Below are positions 7,261-15,365 of a stretch of DNA of 64,000 nucleotides, one piece after another. A model generated the notes under the pieces. That model saw nothing but the letters and a program-made list of their open reading frames with translations, did not search any database and was not told where the DNA came from. The stretch's first letter is position 1. Every line of letters starts with the position of its first letter. Origin of the DNA: an uncultured Flavobacteriaceae bacterium (GTDB lineage: Bacteria > Bacteroidota > Bacteroidia > Flavobacteriales > Flavobacteriaceae); the NCBI GenBank assembly GCA_943842625.1, contig CALTCK010000005.1:1-64000 (forward strand), given 5' to 3'. Position numbers and translations under genes: made by a program.

Positions 7261-7722
7261 TTAAAAACAAACATCATAATCTGTGTTTATGTAAATTACT
7301 TCATCATCAAAGTCCGAGTAAGTTTGAGTAAGTGTATATGAGCTACCATCACTTGTTACTGTAAATACTGTTGTATAACTACCAACATCTTCACCATCAT
7401 CAAATTCAATAAATATTGACAAGCTATTTTCAGTTTCTTCTTGAATTGAAGTTGTGGTTATTCCATCAACGGGGTCATTAGTTGTTCCTTGTAAAGGGAA
7501 GCTTGTACAATTTTCTTCTTCTCCTTCCAAATATGAGTATTGTGTTACACTATTTGAGCTATTAATAAATGCTATTCTATATGAATAATCATTCCCTAAT
7601 GGCAGTCGTTCCCATACAACACTATCGTATTTTTCTATAAAAAGTTGATTACCATCACTACTATCATCACTACTACAAGCAACGATAAGTACAGTTAAAA
7701 AAAGGTAGATTAGTTTTTTCAT
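7261..7722 (-). CDS. Small predicted lipoprotein (tandem family member A)
   Basis: 153 residues. A lipoprotein signal peptide MKKLIYLFLTVLIVAC ends at Cys16, followed by a Ser/Asp spacer; the mature part is predicted beta-rich. The mature N-terminus (NQLFIEKYDSVVWERL) is clearly related to that of the 8473-8970 lipoprotein (NQLFLNIYDGLVW), so the two are paralogues; each has further cysteines that could form a disulfide. Expected location is the outer membrane. It has its own promoter with a PhoB-like direct repeat (7748-7793) and its own terminator. Function unknown. Confidence 0.85.
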   Translation of the reverse strand: MKKLIYLFLTVLIVACSSDDSSDGNQLFIEKYDSVVWERLPLGNDYSYRIAFINSSNSVTQYSYLEGEEENCTSFPLQGTTNDPVDGITTTSIQEETENSLSIFIEFDDGEDVGSYTTVFTVTSDGSSYTLTQTYSDFDDEVIYINTDYDVCF

Positions 7723-7747
7723 AATGTAAATTGTTTAATGTTTTGAA

Positions 7748-7793
7748 CAAATATAAACAAAAAGATAAAGCTGTGTGGTACAACTTTGGTACA
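7748..7793 (-). promoter_or_regulatory. Direct-repeat operator plus -7 box upstream of the 7261-7722 gene
   Basis: In gene direction: TGTACCAAAGTTGTACCA (7793-7776), two 7-nt repeats with 11-bp period. After 20 nt comes TATATTTG (7755-7748), an exact -7 box, then 25 nt to the start codon. No TTTG is present at -33; the repeat occupies that place, as an activator box would. The same arrangement stands before two other genes nearby. Confidence 0.65.
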
Positions 7794-7839
7794 TAAAAAC
7801 CCTCACATTTCTGCAAGGGTTATATAATATGTATTGTGT

Positions 7840-8463
7840 TTAGTTAACACGAACTGCATTAAATTCAATCCTTATGGGAGCGGGTATATCATAATAACCT
7901 GTGTCAAGACTTAAAAAGTAAAGAACCCCTTCATATGTTGCCTTCAAAGTTTCTCCATAATCTAACCCAGTATTTGTTGATGTTGGTTGTGTTCCTAAAT
8001 CTGTAACAAGAATATTTGTAATTACTCCTGTATCTCCCGTTCCATTTTCTTTAAAATTTGTACCAGTACTTGGATAAGAACCAATACTTATTAAATAATC
8101 ATCAATATAATTTCCGAAAAACTTGCCTAATACACCCGTATTACTTCCTAGTTGCGCATCATCAAGAATAAGAAATAAATTCATAGTTTGCCCAGAAATA
8201 TAAGAAACATCGGTTATATCTGAAATAGATAGGGATGTAGCCCATTGGGGTGCTATACCTGTATAACATCTATTTTTTACGCTCCAACTATTTGTGTTTG
8301 ATGTATTACCTTGTACCCTATTTATCACTCCACCAAATTCAACTTCGAAGAAATAGTCAACATTATTACTATTATTTGAATTGTTGTTAGAATTATTACC
8401 GCCATCCTCACCACTACACCCAACGATGAGTACAGTTAAAAAAATATAGAGTAGTTTTTTCAT
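7840..8463 (-). CDS. Predicted lipoprotein with Asn/Ser-rich linker
   Basis: 207 residues. Signal peptide MKKLLYIFLTVLIVGC with lipobox Cys16, then an acidic/Gly start and a low-complexity NNSNNNSNNSNN linker (about residues 23-35) that tethers the mature domain away from the membrane. The mature part is beta-rich with no recognised domain. Separated by 9 nt from the upstream lipoprotein gene (8473-8970) and therefore cotranscribed with it. The signal peptides of the three tandem genes are nearly interchangeable while the mature parts differ. Function unknown; outer-membrane lipoprotein by inference. Confidence 0.8.
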   Translation of the reverse strand: MKKLLYIFLTVLIVGCSGEDGGNNSNNNSNNSNNVDYFFEVEFGGVINRVQGNTSNTNSWSVKNRCYTGIAPQWATSLSISDITDVSYISGQTMNLFLILDDAQLGSNTGVLGKFFGNYIDDYLISIGSYPSTGTNFKENGTGDTGVITNILVTDLGTQPTSTNTGLDYGETLKATYEGVLYFLSLDTGYYDIPAPIRIEFNAVRVN

Positions 8464-8472
8464 TTTGTTTTT

Positions 8473-8970
8473 CTAATTACAAGGAAATTCATCTGGAGCA
8501 ATAGTATAAGTTTCAGATTGTTGTACATCTTGATTTGAAATAAAAAATTCATTTAACAAAGTATTTCCACTACTACTTACAGTACAAGATACAGTTACGG
8601 TATATGAATCAACTCCAAGATCTTCGTTATAAACAACTTGACCCGAGAAAACTATATTATTCTGTTCTTCATTTTGAATTGTGTAAGTAACCTCTCCAAG
8701 TTCAACTCCTGCTTCATTTGTAATGGACGATGGCACTCCAAAGATAATAGTATCACAAAACTCATCATCAAATACAGTTAAACTTGGAGGATCGCTGTAA
8801 AAAGTCAATTTATCAGTTCCGATATCACCAGGGGATTCCGAGTTTAATTTCCAAACTAAACCATCATAAATATTCAAAAACAGTTGATTTACTGCGTCTT
8901 CATTTGAGCTGTCATCAGATGAACAAGCAACGATTAATAAAGCTAAAAATAAATAAGTTAGTTTTTTCAT
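8473..8970 (-). CDS. Small predicted lipoprotein (tandem family member B)
   Basis: 165 residues. Lipoprotein signal MKKLTYLFLALLIVAC, SSDDSS spacer and a mature domain starting NQLFLNIYDGLVW, paralogous to the 7261-7722 protein. Several cysteines in the mature part (e.g. DDEFCDTIIFG, TVSCTVSS, final PCN) suggest disulfides in the periplasm or at the surface. First gene of a two-gene unit with 7840-8463. A PhoB-like direct repeat lies 55 nt upstream of the start codon, at the same distance as in the 7722 and 9900 units. Function unknown. Confidence 0.85.
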   Translation of the reverse strand: MKKLTYLFLALLIVACSSDDSSNEDAVNQLFLNIYDGLVWKLNSESPGDIGTDKLTFYSDPPSLTVFDDEFCDTIIFGVPSSITNEAGVELGEVTYTIQNEEQNNIVFSGQVVYNEDLGVDSYTVTVSCTVSSSGNTLLNEFFISNQDVQQSETYTIAPDEFPCN

Positions 8971-8997
8971 TGTGTTTTGATTGAAAATTTATAATGA

Positions 8998-9043
8998 TAA
9001 AATTAGTAATTATAAATTAAATAACTGATACATAGTTGATACT
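8998..9043 (-). promoter_or_regulatory. Direct-repeat operator plus -7 box upstream of the 8970-7840 unit
   Basis: In gene direction: AGTATCAACTATGTATCAG (9043-9025), a direct repeat of GTATCA with 11-bp period. A 19-nt gap follows, then TAATTTTA (9005-8998), 7 of 8 to TAnnTTTG. Sequence and spacing match the elements at 7748-7793 and 9830-9875. Confidence 0.6.
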
Positions 9044-9121
9044 TCTAAAATAGATGTAAAAAATACCATAAAAAGTGCTTCTAATTATATAATATTTTGC
9101 GTTTTCAAAAAGTAGACATAG

Positions 9122-9152
9122 TTTATAGGTTTTAAAACTTTAACTATATTTG
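9122..9152 (+). promoter_or_regulatory. Promoter of the 9175 SnoaL-like lipoprotein
   Basis: TTTA (9122-9125), 19-nt spacer, TATATTTG (9145-9152): near-perfect Bacteroidota promoter, 22 nt before the start codon. This gene lacks the direct-repeat element of its neighbours. Confidence 0.65.
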
Positions 9153-9174
9153 AAAGAACCAAAACTTAACAAAA

Positions 9175-9684
9175 ATGAAGAAATTATTATTTGCGTTACC
9201 GCTCCTTTTAGTGATAGCTTGTGCACAACAAGAAAAAGCGAGCGAACCCACTAATGGATTTGGGCCTTATGAAGGTCAAAGTGTTTATCTAGGAGATCAA
9301 GCTACTGTCGAGGCTTTTAAAAATCTTGATGTAGCCTGGGGAGCTCGCGACTACGAAACAATGAAAGGAATGATTCAAGATGGAGGAATGTTTGTTTTTG
9401 AAGATGGATTTACTGCAACTACAGGGCAGGAGTTTGTCGATAAAATTGAATTAGAATATCAAGAATCGCTTGAAAAAGAACAAGAATGGGGTTGGAAAAC
9501 AGATTACGCTTTTTCGGTATATCCGAAAGGCTCCGAAGATCCAAAGGCCTTAAATCAAGAGGGACAATGGGTTAACGCTCAATTTACGGGTACCGACGGC
9601 ACCTATATTGAATGGTATCAAATGGTAGATGGGAAACTTAAAATGTGGTACCAAACTAAAGGTAACTACGTGATCCCTGAATAA
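9175..9684 (+). CDS. SnoaL/NTF2-like lipoprotein
   Basis: 169 residues. Lipoprotein signal MKKLLFALPLLLVIAC (Cys16). The mature part has the NTF2-like layout: an N-terminal helix with FKNLDVAWGARDYETMKGMI, strands GMFVFEDGFTATTGQEFV, and a C-terminal strand block ending TYIEWYQMVDGKLKMWYQTKGNY. Such cone-shaped domains bind small hydrophobic ligands or act as enzymes; no catalytic residues can be assigned. Related NTF2-like lipoproteins are encoded at 20658 and 22229. Monocistronic, with a good promoter and a strong terminator. Confidence 0.8.
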   Translation: MKKLLFALPLLLVIACAQQEKASEPTNGFGPYEGQSVYLGDQATVEAFKNLDVAWGARDYETMKGMIQDGGMFVFEDGFTATTGQEFVDKIELEYQESLEKEQEWGWKTDYAFSVYPKGSEDPKALNQEGQWVNAQFTGTDGTYIEWYQMVDGKLKMWYQTKGNYVIPE

Positions 9685-9713
9685 AATAATATACCGCTAC
9701 ACTATAACATTCT

Positions 9714-9739
9714 AAACCTCCGATATCGGAGGTTTTTCT
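9714..9739 (+). terminator. Terminator of the 9175 gene
   Basis: AAACCTCCGAT / ATCGGAGGTTT, a perfect 22-bp palindrome (9714-9735) followed by TTCTT. A stem of up to about nine pairs with a tight loop, 29 nt after the stop codon. Confidence 0.85.
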
Positions 9740-9805
9740 TTGGACTTTTCTGTAATTTATGATAATATTATTAAAGATTTGGTTTTTTTATAGCGTTATT
9801 TCAAA

Positions 9806-9875
9806 TTGATATATCAAGAAAAATATACATGTATCAAAAATGTATCAATTTATTTGTATTTTTTTCTTATGTTAG
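9806..9875 (+). promoter_or_regulatory. Palindrome and direct-repeat operator upstream of the DUF6175 operon
   Basis: TTGATATATCAA palindrome (9806-9817), then TGTATCAAAAATGTATCAA (9830-9848), two direct repeats with 11-bp period. A 19-nt gap follows, then TATGTTAG (9868-9875), 7 of 8 to TAnnTTTG. The TATCAA half-sites start at 9812, 9832 and 9843, i.e. about two turns and one turn apart on one face of the helix. The start codon is 51 nt beyond the repeat. Confidence 0.65.
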
Positions 9876-9899: not shown

Positions 9900-11159
9900 A
9901 TGAAAAAATTACTATTCCTATTATTAATGGCTCCAATGCTATTATTCGCCCAAGACAAAAACGATTACACTAGAAGTTCCCTTCATCTCCATCTTGTTGA
10001 TGATTTTGACTTTGAGAGTGGTGATTACGTTTTAAAATCCTATCAAAAATTTCACAAAGATCATTTTCCAGAAAATTATAATAATCATTCAATTGATTTA
10101 AATAAAATCCGTTTGGAAAACTGGCAACTGTCAGAGGAGGAAATGGCTGCCGCAGGCAAGAGCAACAACGCGCTTGGCAATGCAATGAGTCAATCTGCTT
10201 CTGGTGCTACTGGTGGTGCTCTAAAAATCCAAGATAATTCTATGGTTAAATTGCAGTTAGACAAATATATAGCTGAGAAAAAGATAGCCCACGAATTAAT
10301 AAAAAAATGGTGGTCAGTTAAGGATGACGGATCTTACAGTAATGCATATATAACCTCTAGGACTCTTGAGAATGAGTCCGTTGAATCAGCAGCATTAACA
10401 GCTGTTCAGGATATGCAAACAGATGTAATAAATAAACTTATCTCCAATACTTTTGTAGTATTTAGTAGATTATATTATGTAAGTAATGCGATACCTGCTG
10501 AAGTTGTAAGGCAAGCTGCATACGCATTAGCTAAGGAATCACCAGAGATGTTAAGAGACGCTGCAATGAAAAAAGCTGATCAAGCATATGAAAAAGCGTC
10601 AGAGGGCTATTCAGTTTGGTCAACTTCTTGGCTTTACAAATTAAATTGGGATCAATCTGTTTTTGATCAATTCATAACAACCATTGAACTTGATGGGGAT
10701 ACTCCGAAAATTAATTTTGAAAAATTAAATGCTCTCAGTTTTAATCTAGAATTTCTAAATCAACAGAAAGCAACTTCATTAGTAACTTTTTCACTTAAAG
10801 AAGAAGATAAAAATAGGACTCAAGACGATATTTTTGATCGTTCAACCATCCGAAATATGGATAAAGTACTTGTAAAACTTCAAAAGAAAAATGATGTTTT
10901 TAAACCAGTATTCCCACTTAGAGATGGATTTGCTTTAGCAGCAGGGACAAAAGAGGGCTTAGAAGGAGATGAAGTATTTGATGTTTTAGAATTCAAAAAA
11001 GGAGAGTACAAAAGCATTGGTACAATGAAGGTAGATAAGAAAAGAATATGGGATAATTCCTTCGAAATTGGAAGGGATGTAGAGCCAGGTCTTACTTATT
11101 TTAAAAAAGGGAGTAAAAAATTTATTCCTGGAATTCATTACGTAAAATTTAAAAAATAA
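9900..11159 (+). CDS. Exported hypothetical protein, first gene of the DUF6175 operon
   Basis: 419 residues, signal peptide MKKLLFLLLMAPMLLFAQ with probable cleavage after Ala17-Gln, so a soluble periplasmic or secreted protein without lipobox. A Gly/Ser/Ala-rich stretch near residues 90-105 (NAMSQSASGATGGALK) separates an N-terminal helical part from a mixed middle. The C-terminal domain (about 270-419) reads as short strands, e.g. DGFALAAGTKEGLEGDEVFDVLEF, reminiscent of a small beta-barrel or SH3-like fold. No enzyme motif is seen. Only 3 nt separate it from the DUF6175 gene; the three genes form one operon behind a direct-repeat promoter. Function not known to me. Confidence 0.85.
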   Translation: MKKLLFLLLMAPMLLFAQDKNDYTRSSLHLHLVDDFDFESGDYVLKSYQKFHKDHFPENYNNHSIDLNKIRLENWQLSEEEMAAAGKSNNALGNAMSQSASGATGGALKIQDNSMVKLQLDKYIAEKKIAHELIKKWWSVKDDGSYSNAYITSRTLENESVESAALTAVQDMQTDVINKLISNTFVVFSRLYYVSNAIPAEVVRQAAYALAKESPEMLRDAAMKKADQAYEKASEGYSVWSTSWLYKLNWDQSVFDQFITTIELDGDTPKINFEKLNALSFNLEFLNQQKATSLVTFSLKEEDKNRTQDDIFDRSTIRNMDKVLVKLQKKNDVFKPVFPLRDGFALAAGTKEGLEGDEVFDVLEFKKGEYKSIGTMKVDKKRIWDNSFEIGRDVEPGLTYFKKGSKKFIPGIHYVKFKK

Positions 11160-11162
11160 TTT

Positions 11163-12608
11163 ATGAAAACTTTAAAAATATTTTTAATTATTTCAATTTT
11201 AATCCCTGTAAATTTAATTGCTCAGTCAAAAAGAGAAGACAGGATTTCACAGGAGAGAACAAGAAATTGGCAATATGAGTCAATTTGCTTTCAATCCGGA
11301 GGTGCTGGCAGTAGTTATTTAGTTCAAATCACTTCTTATGTAGCTGACATAAAACAAGCACAAGCTGCTGCTAAAAGAGATGCTATTCATGCTGTCCTTT
11401 TTAAGGGAATTTCGGGGAATAATTTAGGCTGTACAACTAAAGAACCCGTAATACCTAATGCTGTTTATGAAGATAACTTCCAATATTTTGAGGATTTTTT
11501 CTTCAACTCGCAAGCGTTCAATCAATTTGCAACTATTCCGTCTGGTTCTGCAGAACCAGGTTTTGAAAAATTAAAAAAATCTAAAACGTATAGAATTACC
11601 CACATAGTTTCGGTAAACGTTGAAACTCTTAGAGAAAGACTTGAAGCAGATAAAATTATAGAAGGACTTGGAGATGGACTTGAATCAGCGGGAGGTCCCC
11701 TGCCCATTATTATGGTTTTTCCCTCTGATATATGGATGAATGCAAATGGTTACATGAATAAATTAGATAATCAAGGCGTTACTGTTTACGCTCCAGATTA
11801 TAAAGCTGCACTATTAAATCCTGAATTAGGGACTGCTATGAGAACTCTTGAGGACCTTTTAGGGGAAAGAGGATACAGCCCAGTTAAATTATCTGAAGAA
11901 ATTAAAAAATTAGCAGAGGATGATGCAATTGCAAATTCTGTTGAAGGACGAGATGGTGGTGGTTCTGAAACTTCTATTTTAGAAGATATATTAGCCGTAG
12001 CAAGACCTGATATCCGTTGGGACGTAACTTATACAAAGCAAACTAATGGTATCCAAAATTGGCTTGATTATGGTATAGAGGCCATTGATGCTTATACGGG
12101 TAAAAGATTTGCTGGAGCTGACGACTCAGGGCCAAAATCAATGAGTGCATCTACTTCAGAACTTTTAAGGCAAGCAGTAGCTGATAAAATGGATGATTTC
12201 CTTTCAGAGCATCAAGATCATTTTAATGAAATTATTGAAAAAGGAAGAGAAATATCTTTAGATATTAGAAGGTTCGACAGTTTTGAATATTATTTTAATG
12301 ATGACATTGAGTTTAAAGGAAAAGAAATGGAACTACAATCCTTAATTAGAAGCTATTTAGGTTCTATTGCACGAGATAAAGCTTTTAATTTTAATGCAAC
12401 CGAGAATAAAATCACTGTAAAACAACTTAGAATTGACGTGTCAGAGGAAGTGGAAGATCTATTTGGTGATGGAATGACAACAGAGCCTCTTGATGCATCA
12501 AAATTTGCTGGTAAATTATCTCGTTTTATTAAAAAACAATTTGGCTATCCTTCTAAAGTAGTTCCGAAGGGAGTTGGAGGAGCAATTATATACGTAGGAG
12601 AAAAATAA
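11163..12608 (+). CDS. DUF6175 family exported protein
   Basis: 481 residues with signal peptide MKTLKIFLIISILIPVNLIAQ. Residues 25-165 form an LPP20-like N-terminal region with cysteines in ESICFQSGG and NLGCTTKE. Residues 175-330 carry the DUF6175 signature as I remember it (IIMVFPSDIWMNANGYM, then TVYAPDYKAALLN and LLGERGYSPVKL). A C-terminal domain follows (IRSYLGSIARDKAF ... FIKKQFGYPSKVVP). The architecture recalls outer-membrane assembly or LpoB/FlgT/CsgG-like periplasmic proteins, an inference only. Six nucleotides separate it from the next gene, so the three products are made together. Confidence 0.8.
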   Translation: MKTLKIFLIISILIPVNLIAQSKREDRISQERTRNWQYESICFQSGGAGSSYLVQITSYVADIKQAQAAAKRDAIHAVLFKGISGNNLGCTTKEPVIPNAVYEDNFQYFEDFFFNSQAFNQFATIPSGSAEPGFEKLKKSKTYRITHIVSVNVETLRERLEADKIIEGLGDGLESAGGPLPIIMVFPSDIWMNANGYMNKLDNQGVTVYAPDYKAALLNPELGTAMRTLEDLLGERGYSPVKLSEEIKKLAEDDAIANSVEGRDGGGSETSILEDILAVARPDIRWDVTYTKQTNGIQNWLDYGIEAIDAYTGKRFAGADDSGPKSMSASTSELLRQAVADKMDDFLSEHQDHFNEIIEKGREISLDIRRFDSFEYYFNDDIEFKGKEMELQSLIRSYLGSIARDKAFNFNATENKITVKQLRIDVSEEVEDLFGDGMTTEPLDASKFAGKLSRFIKKQFGYPSKVVPKGVGGAIIYVGEK

Positions 12609-12614
12609 TACATT

Positions 12615-13730
12615 ATGAAAAATATAATTAAATTAGTACTAATCTTAATGGTATCATCTTTGACTGCCCAAAATAATTTAGGGAAAAGTGATGATGTAGC
12701 GAGAATCGCTTTAACCTCATTTATCCCTGACAATATTTTAGAGTCGACACCACATGCTAGAAAGTTATTTATTACCAAGTTAGGACAGATAACAACCCGA
12801 AACGGATTGGGTGGCGCTAAAGGATCAAATAATCGTTTTATAATATCAGGAGATCTTAACGTTGTGACCAAGGATATCTTACCAGGACCTCCAACAAAAC
12901 ATGTAGTTACTATTGAGGTTACCTTAGCTGTTGGTGATGGAATTGACGGGAAGTTATTTGCCTCAGAATACATCGAATTTAAGGGATCAGGAAATTCTGA
13001 AGATAAAGCTTTTATCAGTGCTATAAAAAAAATAAATCCTAGACATAGAGACGTTCAAGCAGTTCTTACTGCTGGTAAAGAAAAGATAATTGAATACTAT
13101 AATGCTAATTGTGACTTTATTTCAAAGGAAGCTCAAACTTTAGCAGATTCACGTGAGTTTGAAAAAGCAATTTTTACACTAAACCAAGTGCCTCAGGTTA
13201 CTAAGGAATGTTATGATAAATCAATGGATATGGCGGTCGTAATCATGAATCAAAAACTTGAATTTGAGTGTCAAGAAAGAATTGCTGAAGCAAAAGCACT
13301 TATATCTGCAAATGATTTTGAAAGCGCATCTCAAGTTTTAAATATGTTCTCCAAAGGTATGGACTGTTACAGTGAAGTAGAAGCGCTTCTAACACAGATT
13401 AACACAGGGATATGTTCCAAATACTTAGGAGAGGCAAAAGGATATTGGGCCAATCGCAATTCCTCAGGTGCTGCCGCTGCACTAGCAAATATAAATGCAT
13501 CTTCTCCATGCTACGCAGAGAGCAGTGCATTAGCTGCTGAAATAGCTGGTCTGCTAGATGAAAGAGAACAACGAGAATGGGATCTTAATTACGAGAAGTA
13601 TAAAGACGACCTCAACATAAGAAATAGAGAATTGGATAATGTAGCAAGTAGAATCAAGGCCGTTAGAGATATTGGAGTAGCCTATGGCGAAAATCAACCT
13701 AAAAAAATCACTTATAAATCCCTATTTTAA
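12615..13730 (+). CDS. Exported protein with LpoB-like N-terminus and three cysteine-paired helical repeats
   Basis: 371 residues, signal peptide MKNIIKLVLILMVSSLTAQ. Residues 25-145 look like an LpoB/CsgG-type alpha-beta domain (ARIALTSFIP ... NRFIISGDLNVVTKD ... VVTIEVTLAVGDG). Residues 166-310 hold three TPR-like helical-hairpin repeats, each with one cysteine at its start and another 32-33 residues later: C166/C199, C219/C251, C267/C299. In an exported protein these would staple each hairpin by a disulfide. The C-terminus (311-371) is charged and probably helical. Last gene of the three-gene operon; a strong terminator follows. No function known to me. Confidence 0.82.
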   Translation: MKNIIKLVLILMVSSLTAQNNLGKSDDVARIALTSFIPDNILESTPHARKLFITKLGQITTRNGLGGAKGSNNRFIISGDLNVVTKDILPGPPTKHVVTIEVTLAVGDGIDGKLFASEYIEFKGSGNSEDKAFISAIKKINPRHRDVQAVLTAGKEKIIEYYNANCDFISKEAQTLADSREFEKAIFTLNQVPQVTKECYDKSMDMAVVIMNQKLEFECQERIAEAKALISANDFESASQVLNMFSKGMDCYSEVEALLTQINTGICSKYLGEAKGYWANRNSSGAAAALANINASSPCYAESSALAAEIAGLLDEREQREWDLNYEKYKDDLNIRNRELDNVASRIKAVRDIGVAYGENQPKKITYKSLF

Positions 13731-13873: not shown

Positions 13874-14566
13874 TTAATTGTTAATTTGCTCTAAAAGCGC
13901 ACTAATAGTTTTTGCTACTCCAACACCTGGTAATTTTACAGGAGATCCAACCTGTGCTAAAAAGGTACCACTAACCTCTCCTTTCTTGTAAGTAGTAAAA
14001 CCTATTCGATATAGTCCTACAGTAAGAGCTCCCAGAGGATCATTTAAATTACTCTCATATCTTAGTAGAGAATTGTAGCTTCTTCCACCTGGATTTTTTG
14101 GCATTTCACCACTATCATCGTTACGCGCTAGGGTATTCCAATTAGCATTGGCAACTCCTTCTTCACTAATACCTTGTTTTGTGAATATATCCGATCTTTC
14201 TAGTGTTATGTAAGTATCAAAGTAATCGTTAGAATCACTATTTTCGGTATAATCAGCAGATGTAACGATATTTTTTGATTTAATTGTGCCAGCAGGGGAC
14301 ATCATCCTAACTCCTATTTCTGGAGCCACCACTGGAATCCAAACATAAATGTAATAAAACTTTTTACCGTCTTTAATTTCATCTTCTGTTCCTGGAGATG
14401 CGTAACCCATAAATGAAGTGACATCTGTATAAGGAACAGCAATTTTTTTTGGGCCCATTTTTTTTGTGATGGAGCTATTAAAAGTTTTCAATTTTTGAGC
14501 ACTTAACTTTTCTGTCGCGAAAACTAAGATCAACAGAACTAATGATAATTTAAATAAATTTTGCAT
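13874..14566 (-). CDS. LipL32-family surface protein homologue
   Basis: 230 residues. The sequence matches my recollection of the Leptospira surface lipoprotein LipL32 across its core: GKKFYYIYVWIPVVAPEIG (67-85, LipL32 has KKAYYLYVWIPAV), VRMMSP, YFDTYITLERSDI (115-127), YNSLLRY (164-170) and GLYRIGFTTYKKGEVSGTF (184-202). It has an ordinary signal peptide ending LSAQ and no lipobox cysteine, so it is predicted to be secreted or periplasmic and not lipidated. The Asp-rich calcium-binding loop of LipL32 is reduced. It lies 88 nt downstream of the LytTR regulator of the H-NOX operon, same strand. The role of LipL32 itself is uncertain, so no function is assigned. Confidence 0.85.
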   Translation of the reverse strand: MQNLFKLSLVLLILVFATEKLSAQKLKTFNSSITKKMGPKKIAVPYTDVTSFMGYASPGTEDEIKDGKKFYYIYVWIPVVAPEIGVRMMSPAGTIKSKNIVTSADYTENSDSNDYFDTYITLERSDIFTKQGISEEGVANANWNTLARNDDSGEMPKNPGGRSYNSLLRYESNLNDPLGALTVGLYRIGFTTYKKGEVSGTFLAQVGSPVKLPGVGVAKTISALLEQINN

Positions 14567-14654: not shown

Positions 14655-15365
14655 TTAGAGTAGATTTAGCCTTTTCATTAATTCAGGTCTGTTAGACCTG
14701 CTTACGGGAACAATATCTTTTTCGATTAATACACTATTGTCTTCAATATCAATAATTTTATTAATATTAATGATGTATGATCGGTGTATTTTTAAGAACA
14801 TATGATCGGGTAGTTTTTCTTCGATCTTTTTTAAAGTAGAATGTACCGTATAGTTCTTATGGTCGGTTTTCAAATAAATATAATCGCCCTTTGCTTCCAC
14901 CAAATAAATACTTTGAATGTCGATTTTAATTAAACGCTTATTAATGTTTACATAAAAATCATCGCCTGTCTGTTGCTTCTCTTTATCAGTAACAGTAGCA
15001 GTAACTTTTTCGTTAAGTTTTCCTTCTACTTTTTGTATAGACTTTTTAAAACGCTCTGGTTTAATAGGCTTTACAATGTAATCTACGATGCAATCGTACT
15101 CAAATGCTTGGATCGCAAATTCGGCATCAGCCGTTGTTAGGATGATATACGGGGGGTCCTTTAAAGTCCTGATAAAATCAAAGCCGTTAAAATCAGGCAT
15201 ATGGATATCAAGAAATATTAAATCTGTTTTATTTTGATTTAAATATTTAATCGCTTCAATAGCGTTAGAAAATACCTCTACTACATTAAGATTTTTGTAG
15301 CTCGAACATAATTCCCCAATTATAGTTCTAGAAGTAGCTTCATCATCAATAATTATACAATTCAT
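14655..15365 (-). CDS. LytTR-family response regulator
   Basis: 236 residues. An N-terminal receiver (about 1-120) has the acidic pair in IIDDE, phospho-acceptor D53 in FLDIHMPDFNG, a Thr-Thr switch in YIILTTADAEF and the KP motif (VDYIVKPIKPERF). The C-terminal LytTR DNA-binding domain (about 138-236) includes IYLVEAKGDYIYLKT and FLKIHRSYIININKI. It is the last gene of the H-NOX operon and its start ATG overlaps the Hpt stop (shared base at 15365). It is the only DNA-binding output in the operon, hence the likely transcriptional end point. The LipL32-like gene downstream is an obvious candidate target or co-transcribed gene. Confidence 0.92.
   Translation of the reverse strand: MNCIIIDDEATSRTIIGELCSSYKNLNVVEVFSNAIEAIKYLNQNKTDLIFLDIHMPDFNGFDFIRTLKDPPYIILTTADAEFAIQAFEYDCIVDYIVKPIKPERFKKSIQKVEGKLNEKVTATVTDKEKQQTGDDFYVNINKRLIKIDIQSIYLVEAKGDYIYLKTDHKNYTVHSTLKKIEEKLPDHMFLKIHRSYIININKIIDIEDNSVLIEKDIVPVSRSNRPELMKRLNLL

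Follow-up and report, generated by a model that had tools for sequence, protein, structure and literature searches.

The promoter repeats of three envelope-gene units

The window, a 64-kb stretch of DNA from an uncultured Flavobacteriaceae bacterium (contig 5 of a 1.94-Mb genome in 17 contigs that is 84% complete), harbors three units of lipoprotein and secreted-protein genes that share a direct-repeat element at their promoters. This raises the question of which protein reads the repeats, and with what effect. The original prediction was a winged-helix activator of the PhoB/OmpR family, encoded outside the window and co-regulating the lipoproteins and the DUF6175 operon. The elements, their -7 boxes, and the units that they precede are as follows.

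7776..7793, (-): operator 1, TGTACCAAAGTTGTACCA, TGTACCA-aagt-TGTACCA, a tandem 7-nt direct repeat with an 11-bp period
7748..7755, (-): -7 box TATATTTG, 6/6 matches, 20 nt from operator 1
7261..7722, (-): target gene of operator 1, encoding a 153-aa lipoprotein-like protein with a signal peptide
9026..9043, (-): operator 2, AGTATCAACTATGTATCA, AGTATCA-acta-TGTATCA
8998..9005, (-): -7-like box TAATTTTA, 5/6 matches, 20 nt from operator 2
7840..8970, (-): target unit of operator 2, two lipoprotein-like genes (8473-8970 and 7840-8463)
9830..9847, (+): operator 3, TGTATCAAAAATGTATCA, TGTATCA-aaaa-TGTATCA
9868..9875, (+): -7-like box TATGTTAG, 5/6 matches, 20 nt from operator 3
9900..13730, (+): target operon of operator 3, encoding a 419-aa secreted protein, a DUF6175 protein, and a 371-aa secreted protein

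All three elements were recovered as predicted with their 11-bp period, and the geometry that had been likened to a Pho box, two 7-nt direct repeats at this period in an activating position, is indeed present. The distance from the end of the site to the -7 box, put at 19 to 20 nt, is exactly 20 nt in each case, and the start codon follows after 53, 55, and 52 nt, close to the predicted 51 to 55 nt. When periods from 8 to 23 were scanned with at least 13 of 14 matches, TGTAYCA pairs at period 11 were found in the window only at the three operators; two exact matches occur in the 64 kb, against 0.0013 expected under a first-order Markov model. The DUF6175 protein (11163-12608) matches PF19672 with E=4e-64.

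The sequence AGTATCAactaTGTATCA (9026-9043 of the window) recurs at L062, L063, L067, and L068, with similar flanks and different genes downstream, in the window's own genome (G000) as well as in G311 and G301, a pattern that resembles the copying of a promoter cassette. The adjacent lipoprotein genes of the window (7261-8970) and of L058:3803-5017 encode near-identical signal peptides (MKKL.Y.FLALLIVACSSDDS) and mature parts that are unlike one another.

A LipL32-like surface lipoprotein gene of the window (13874-14566, -) immediately follows the gene for a LytTR response regulator (14655-15365, -). Because of this proximity, the LytTR protein was considered as the cognate regulator. LytTR sites have a period of about 21 to 22 bp, which does not match that of the operators, and the protein shows no tie to the motif; it was therefore rejected. 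The LipL32-like gene of the window has no clear tandem operator left, and its counterparts in G311 and G301 (L058, L067) carry one. In Pseudoalteromonas tunicata, a LipL32 ortholog is described as helping surface colonization (PMC4080168).

The element has a fixed place in the promoter

Throughout the genome, TGTAYCA-N4-TGTAYCA is found at 8 exact sites, against 0.04 expected, and at 6 further sites with one mismatch; a reversed control pattern gave 2 sites in all. Among 16 GTATCA pairs with spacers of 0 to 25 nt, 8 have the 5-nt spacer that corresponds to period 11 (binomial, 5e-8). The excess over expectation and this spacer preference indicate that the element is not a product of chance. 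Three identical copies of the motif in G053 are without a promoter context like that of the G000 sites and look unrelated.

We examined 30 clade sites from the window's genome and four congeners, the clade genomes being mostly incomplete metagenome-assembled genomes. In 23 of the 30, a TAnnTTTG box with at least 5 of 6 matches begins at precisely 20 nt from the end of the site, and any other distance between 5 and 39 nt accounts for at most 4. The same TAnnTTTG consensus is that of the -7 element in sigma-A promoters of Flavobacterium psychrophilum, where it was mapped at -12 to -5 (PMC9723704); the term "direct repeat" is absent from the main text of that paper. If the -7 box has the same position here, the operator spans approximately -50 to -33 and thus occupies the place of the -33 element, as had been proposed.

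A divergent gene adjoins the repeat in diverse genomes

At L048 3001-3018, a site of the genome stands next to a divergent gene for a 420-aa protein, with 10 bp between the site and the gene start, and the same arrangement of site and divergent gene was seen in congeners and in another genus. This candidate regulator gene (G000:C8:143334-144590, -) lies on another contig, which agrees with the expectation that the regulator would be absent from the window. The protein gave no Pfam family, no meaningful NCBIfam match, and no PDB sequence match. A family profile scan of genome contigs identified 20 homologs with 29 to 87% identity, ranging from Flavobacteriaceae to Crocinitomicaceae and including one on contig NZ_CH724148.1 of the named strain Polaribacter irgensii 23-P. 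All 20 have a tandem 7-nt repeat with an 11-bp period at the gene start, at a distance of 3 to 29 bp except in L125, where the repeat overlaps the assumed start. In a test that presupposed no motif, an exact 7-mer repeat at period 11 was present in 18 of the 20 upstream regions, and the other periods from 7 to 25 gave none, apart from a single region at period 17. Searches of the literature found no description of either motif or regulator, and the regulator is most likely of a previously undescribed kind, belonging to marine flavobacteria.

The contig of L118 (CALSPC010000009.1) is labeled Rhodobacteraceae and encodes a regulator near-identical to that of L119 from a Flavobacteriaceae genome, so that it is probably misassigned. 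A wider group of weak homologs (L135-L158), Flavobacteriaceae proteins of mostly 411 to 430 aa, shares the N-terminal helix-turn-helix (HTH) domain; upstream of their own genes are 10-bp-period, often triple repeats such as TTGTTCA-n3, with z values of 11.2 at period 10, 6.0 at period 20, and near 0 elsewhere.

The operator beside the regulator gene faces two promoters. Outward, a -7 box is found at 20 nt in 17 of the 20 homologs, a distance that also holds for most remote targets. Inward, the proximal half-site (TAnnTTTGATACA) shares bases with the regulator's own TAnnTTTG box, which has 6/6 matches in 12 of the 20 homologs and 5/6 in five more. Divergent from the regulator is either a candidate for a non-coding RNA or a protein-coding gene, the latter often for a secreted protein. 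This geometry bears on whether the repeats might be an extended -33 element that is read by an alternative sigma factor and includes no activator site, a reading suggested by the unvarying spacing of 20 nt between repeats and -7 box, which resembles a two-part promoter. We find it hardly credible: the -7 box has the ordinary sigma-A sequence, TAnnTTTG (PMC9723704), and the half-sites form head-to-tail arrays of two and sometimes three copies. The element also extends, in reverse orientation, over the regulator gene's -7 box and start, which would be needless for a sigma element.

In the window's genome, the region beside this operator (L048:3045-3240, G000:C8) is free of open reading frames, as it is at L059, L066, and L075, and has a conserved core, AACAACTAACTAACCAAATTAAATCTAATAA; a terminator hairpin is present in 3 of the 4 genomes. 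This region, which would be driven by the regulator-adjacent operator, is probably a small RNA of about 190 nt (MFE z -4.7). A comparison of the candidate with Rfam gave sub-threshold matches only, and its alignments contained no covariation for or against a structure.

Half-sites and their occurrence follow the regulator

Among the operators of the homologs, the usual half-site is TGTATCA, with the variants TGAGCCA, TGTACAA, TGTACTA, TGAAYCA, and TGAACAA. Both halves of a variant operator are altered together, and the alterations track the protein tree of the regulator; in G268, two paralogs have different operators. With the altered half-sites TGAGCCA, TGTACAA, and TGTACTA, the -7 box remains 20 nt away. 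The genome of L123 (G324; TGTACTA) contains two further promoters with the same shifted repeat, and in both cases the downstream gene encodes a secreted protein and the -7 box is 20 nt from the repeat. At the level of sequence, this co-variation provides the strongest evidence that the regulator itself binds the repeats.

Presence and absence match as well. The regulator gene was found in 6 of 19 genomes of the genus (in one as a fragment at a contig edge), and exact TGTATCA sites occur in 4 of these 6 genomes versus 0 of the 13 without it (Fisher, 0.004). Distant genomes with the regulator have at least one to a few sites, beside the regulator gene or upstream of a different one, and several of these, among the matches listed, precede a lipoprotein gene. 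Because only few sites are found in distant genomes among the matches listed, the ancestral system appears to have been local and to have expanded later in the clade of the window's genome.

The regulator is predicted to be all-helical

An AlphaFold model of the protein is all-helical (pLDDT 87 at full length and 97 for the N-terminal domain alone) and contains no winged helix. The N-terminal domain has no Pfam HTH match; its best structural matches are HTH domains of the lambda-repressor/POU type (DdrO, EspR, TP901-1 CI, Rgg2, and ComR), with modest Z scores of 4 to 6. In the structural comparison, at Z 7.5 to 10, almost the full length of the model could be aligned with PrgX, PlcR, and Rgg, and the C-terminal part matched MalT domain III (Z 10.1), Rap (9.2), AimR (8.8), and PrgX (8.7); values of this size are common for helical repeats and can arise by chance. 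In Foldseek, neither the full-length model nor the N-terminal domain gave a match with E <0.001. The prediction is a lambda-repressor-like HTH joined to a tetratricopeptide repeat (TPR)-like superhelix, which in outline would resemble an RRNPP-type receptor.

The peptide-sensing RRNPP(A) proteins (Rap, Rgg, NprR, PlcR, PrgX, and AimR) have the layout predicted here, a lambda/XRE-like HTH followed by a TPR-like superhelix, and their genes adjoin a target, as this one probably does. In contrast to them, the present regulator has no Pfam or PDB sequence match, is found in Bacteroidota instead of Firmicutes, and is linked to an operator that is a head-to-tail direct repeat. Dimers of lambda-repressor-like HTH proteins commonly bind inverted repeats, and direct repeats are unusual for them. 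Published surveys of RRNPP systems looked in Firmicutes (PMC9765709, PMC10075063).

The original prediction, a winged-helix response regulator of the PhoB/OmpR/WalR type that binds the repeats and activates the three units, drew on a real likeness. PhoB and VicR (WalR) boxes also consist of two 7-nt direct repeats with a 4-nt spacer and an 11-bp period upstream of the -10/-7 element, and the site studied here is in an activating position. The VicR box is of the same form as our operator and its consensus, TGTWAHA-N4-TGTWAHA, for a member of the OmpR family, is close to it in sequence (PMC4168254), so that the analogy is understandable. Such a regulator is nevertheless very unlikely. The genome encodes only two Trans_reg_C proteins, of types also found in congeners without the motif, and Trans_reg_C proteins are present in 19 of 19 congeners, most of which have no exact sites. 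The motif, moreover, follows a different protein in position, in presence and absence, and in half-site, and that protein is predicted to be of the all-helical HTH-TPR type, with neither a receiver domain nor a winged helix; this part of the prediction was abandoned. The position differs as well: between the operator and the TA of the -7 box lie 20 nt, and the operator's span of about -50 to -33 is roughly 10 bp further upstream than that of a Pho box, which lies closer to the -10 element by this distance.

A proposed model of activation and autorepression

We consider it very probable that the operators belong to the HTH-TPR regulator encoded on G000:C8, which would bind head to tail, activate its targets, and repress its own gene. 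This reading draws on the sites, their spacing, the linkage, the half-site co-variation, the match in presence and absence, and the predicted fold, all taken from sequences. The lambda-repressor-like HTH would comprise N-terminal residues 1 to 80, with a candidate recognition helix at residues 40 to 47 in the invariant stretch ISYNT-x-RR, and the C-terminal helical-repeat (TPR-like) domain may sense a signal. Two protomers would sit head to tail on the two 7-nt half-sites, separated by one turn of the helix. Since the operator of a target promoter covers approximately -50 to -33, the bound regulator would replace the -33 contact and recruit sigma-A RNA polymerase to TAnnTTTG. At the regulator's own gene the operator overlaps the end of the -7 box and the transcription start, and binding there would shut this promoter while activating the divergent one; it is the geometry of a single operator relative to both -7 boxes that points to autorepression inward and activation outward.

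The cognate regulator might instead be a repressor at every site, as lambda-repressor-like HTH proteins often are, and the operator does overlap the -33 region of the targets. We regard this as unlikely, because the rigid 20-nt spacing, kept even with altered half-sites, is demanded by contact with polymerase and not by repression.

Three consecutive half-sites with an 11-bp period are present at L161:2752-2780, the promoter of a P. irgensii lipoprotein gene at 181751-181779 of G316:C1, and at L078:7157-7185, the operator of a regulator in G268. This suggests head-to-tail stacking of more than two protomers.

Targets and conservation of the putative regulon

Most sites in the window's genome lie upstream of genes with signal peptides, for secreted or envelope proteins. 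Besides the units of the window, these include genes for two metalloproteases, one Reprolysin-like with HYR domains (L051) and one of the matrixin-like M10 type (L053), and for large surface proteins that contain repeats (L049 and L050). Proteins of other kinds are encoded by two operons, one with an SPFH/SHOCT protein (L046) and one with a series of genes that includes an ATP-dependent ligase domain (L047). The site is kept at orthologous promoters in the congener G311 (L047/L057, L051/L055, L049/L061, L050/L065/L074, and L048/L059). Enrichment before genes and conservation at orthologous promoters were the points on which the original prediction was to stand or fall: the motif is enriched before genes and several orthologous promoters keep it, but the site is missing from the DUF6175 operon homologs of G188 and G304. 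Regulon membership is therefore lineage-specific. Through the shared promoter-positioned element, the proposed co-regulation of the lipoproteins and the DUF6175 operon remains probable.

In G311, an operator precedes an operon for a KAP P-loop NTPase (L056:3024-6907), a protein that also matches the PADLOC candidate defence models PDC-S20, QatA, and PifA.

The ancestral arrangement would have been one regulator with one neighboring gene, often one that encodes a lipoprotein or secreted protein. Within the window genome's clade, the operator would then have spread to about a dozen promoters, those of surface proteins, metalloproteases, lipoproteins, envelope-stress-like operons, and the probable small RNA.

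Implications

Few transcription factors of marine flavobacteria have known sites, and our analysis links an unannotated protein family of these bacteria to an operator, a promoter geometry, and a regulon. Tentatively, the regulator may be the first branch to come to light of a Bacteroidota-wide superfamily of cytoplasmic lambda-HTH and TPR proteins that bind tandem direct repeats (with an 11-bp period, or in the wider group a 10-bp period and often three copies), regulate their own genes, and use the helical domain to sense a ligand, possibly a peptide; it would then be an RRNPP-like class outside the Firmicutes. The half-site changes that follow the protein lineage offer a ready data set for a recognition code, and the homolog in the named strain Polaribacter irgensii 23-P makes the idea directly testable. 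The makeup of the putative regulon suggests that it serves to control the cell surface: it contains secreted metalloproteases, surface proteins with HYR domains, lipoproteins (LipL32-like ones among them), operons for SPFH/SHOCT and KAP-NTPase proteins, and a probable small RNA.
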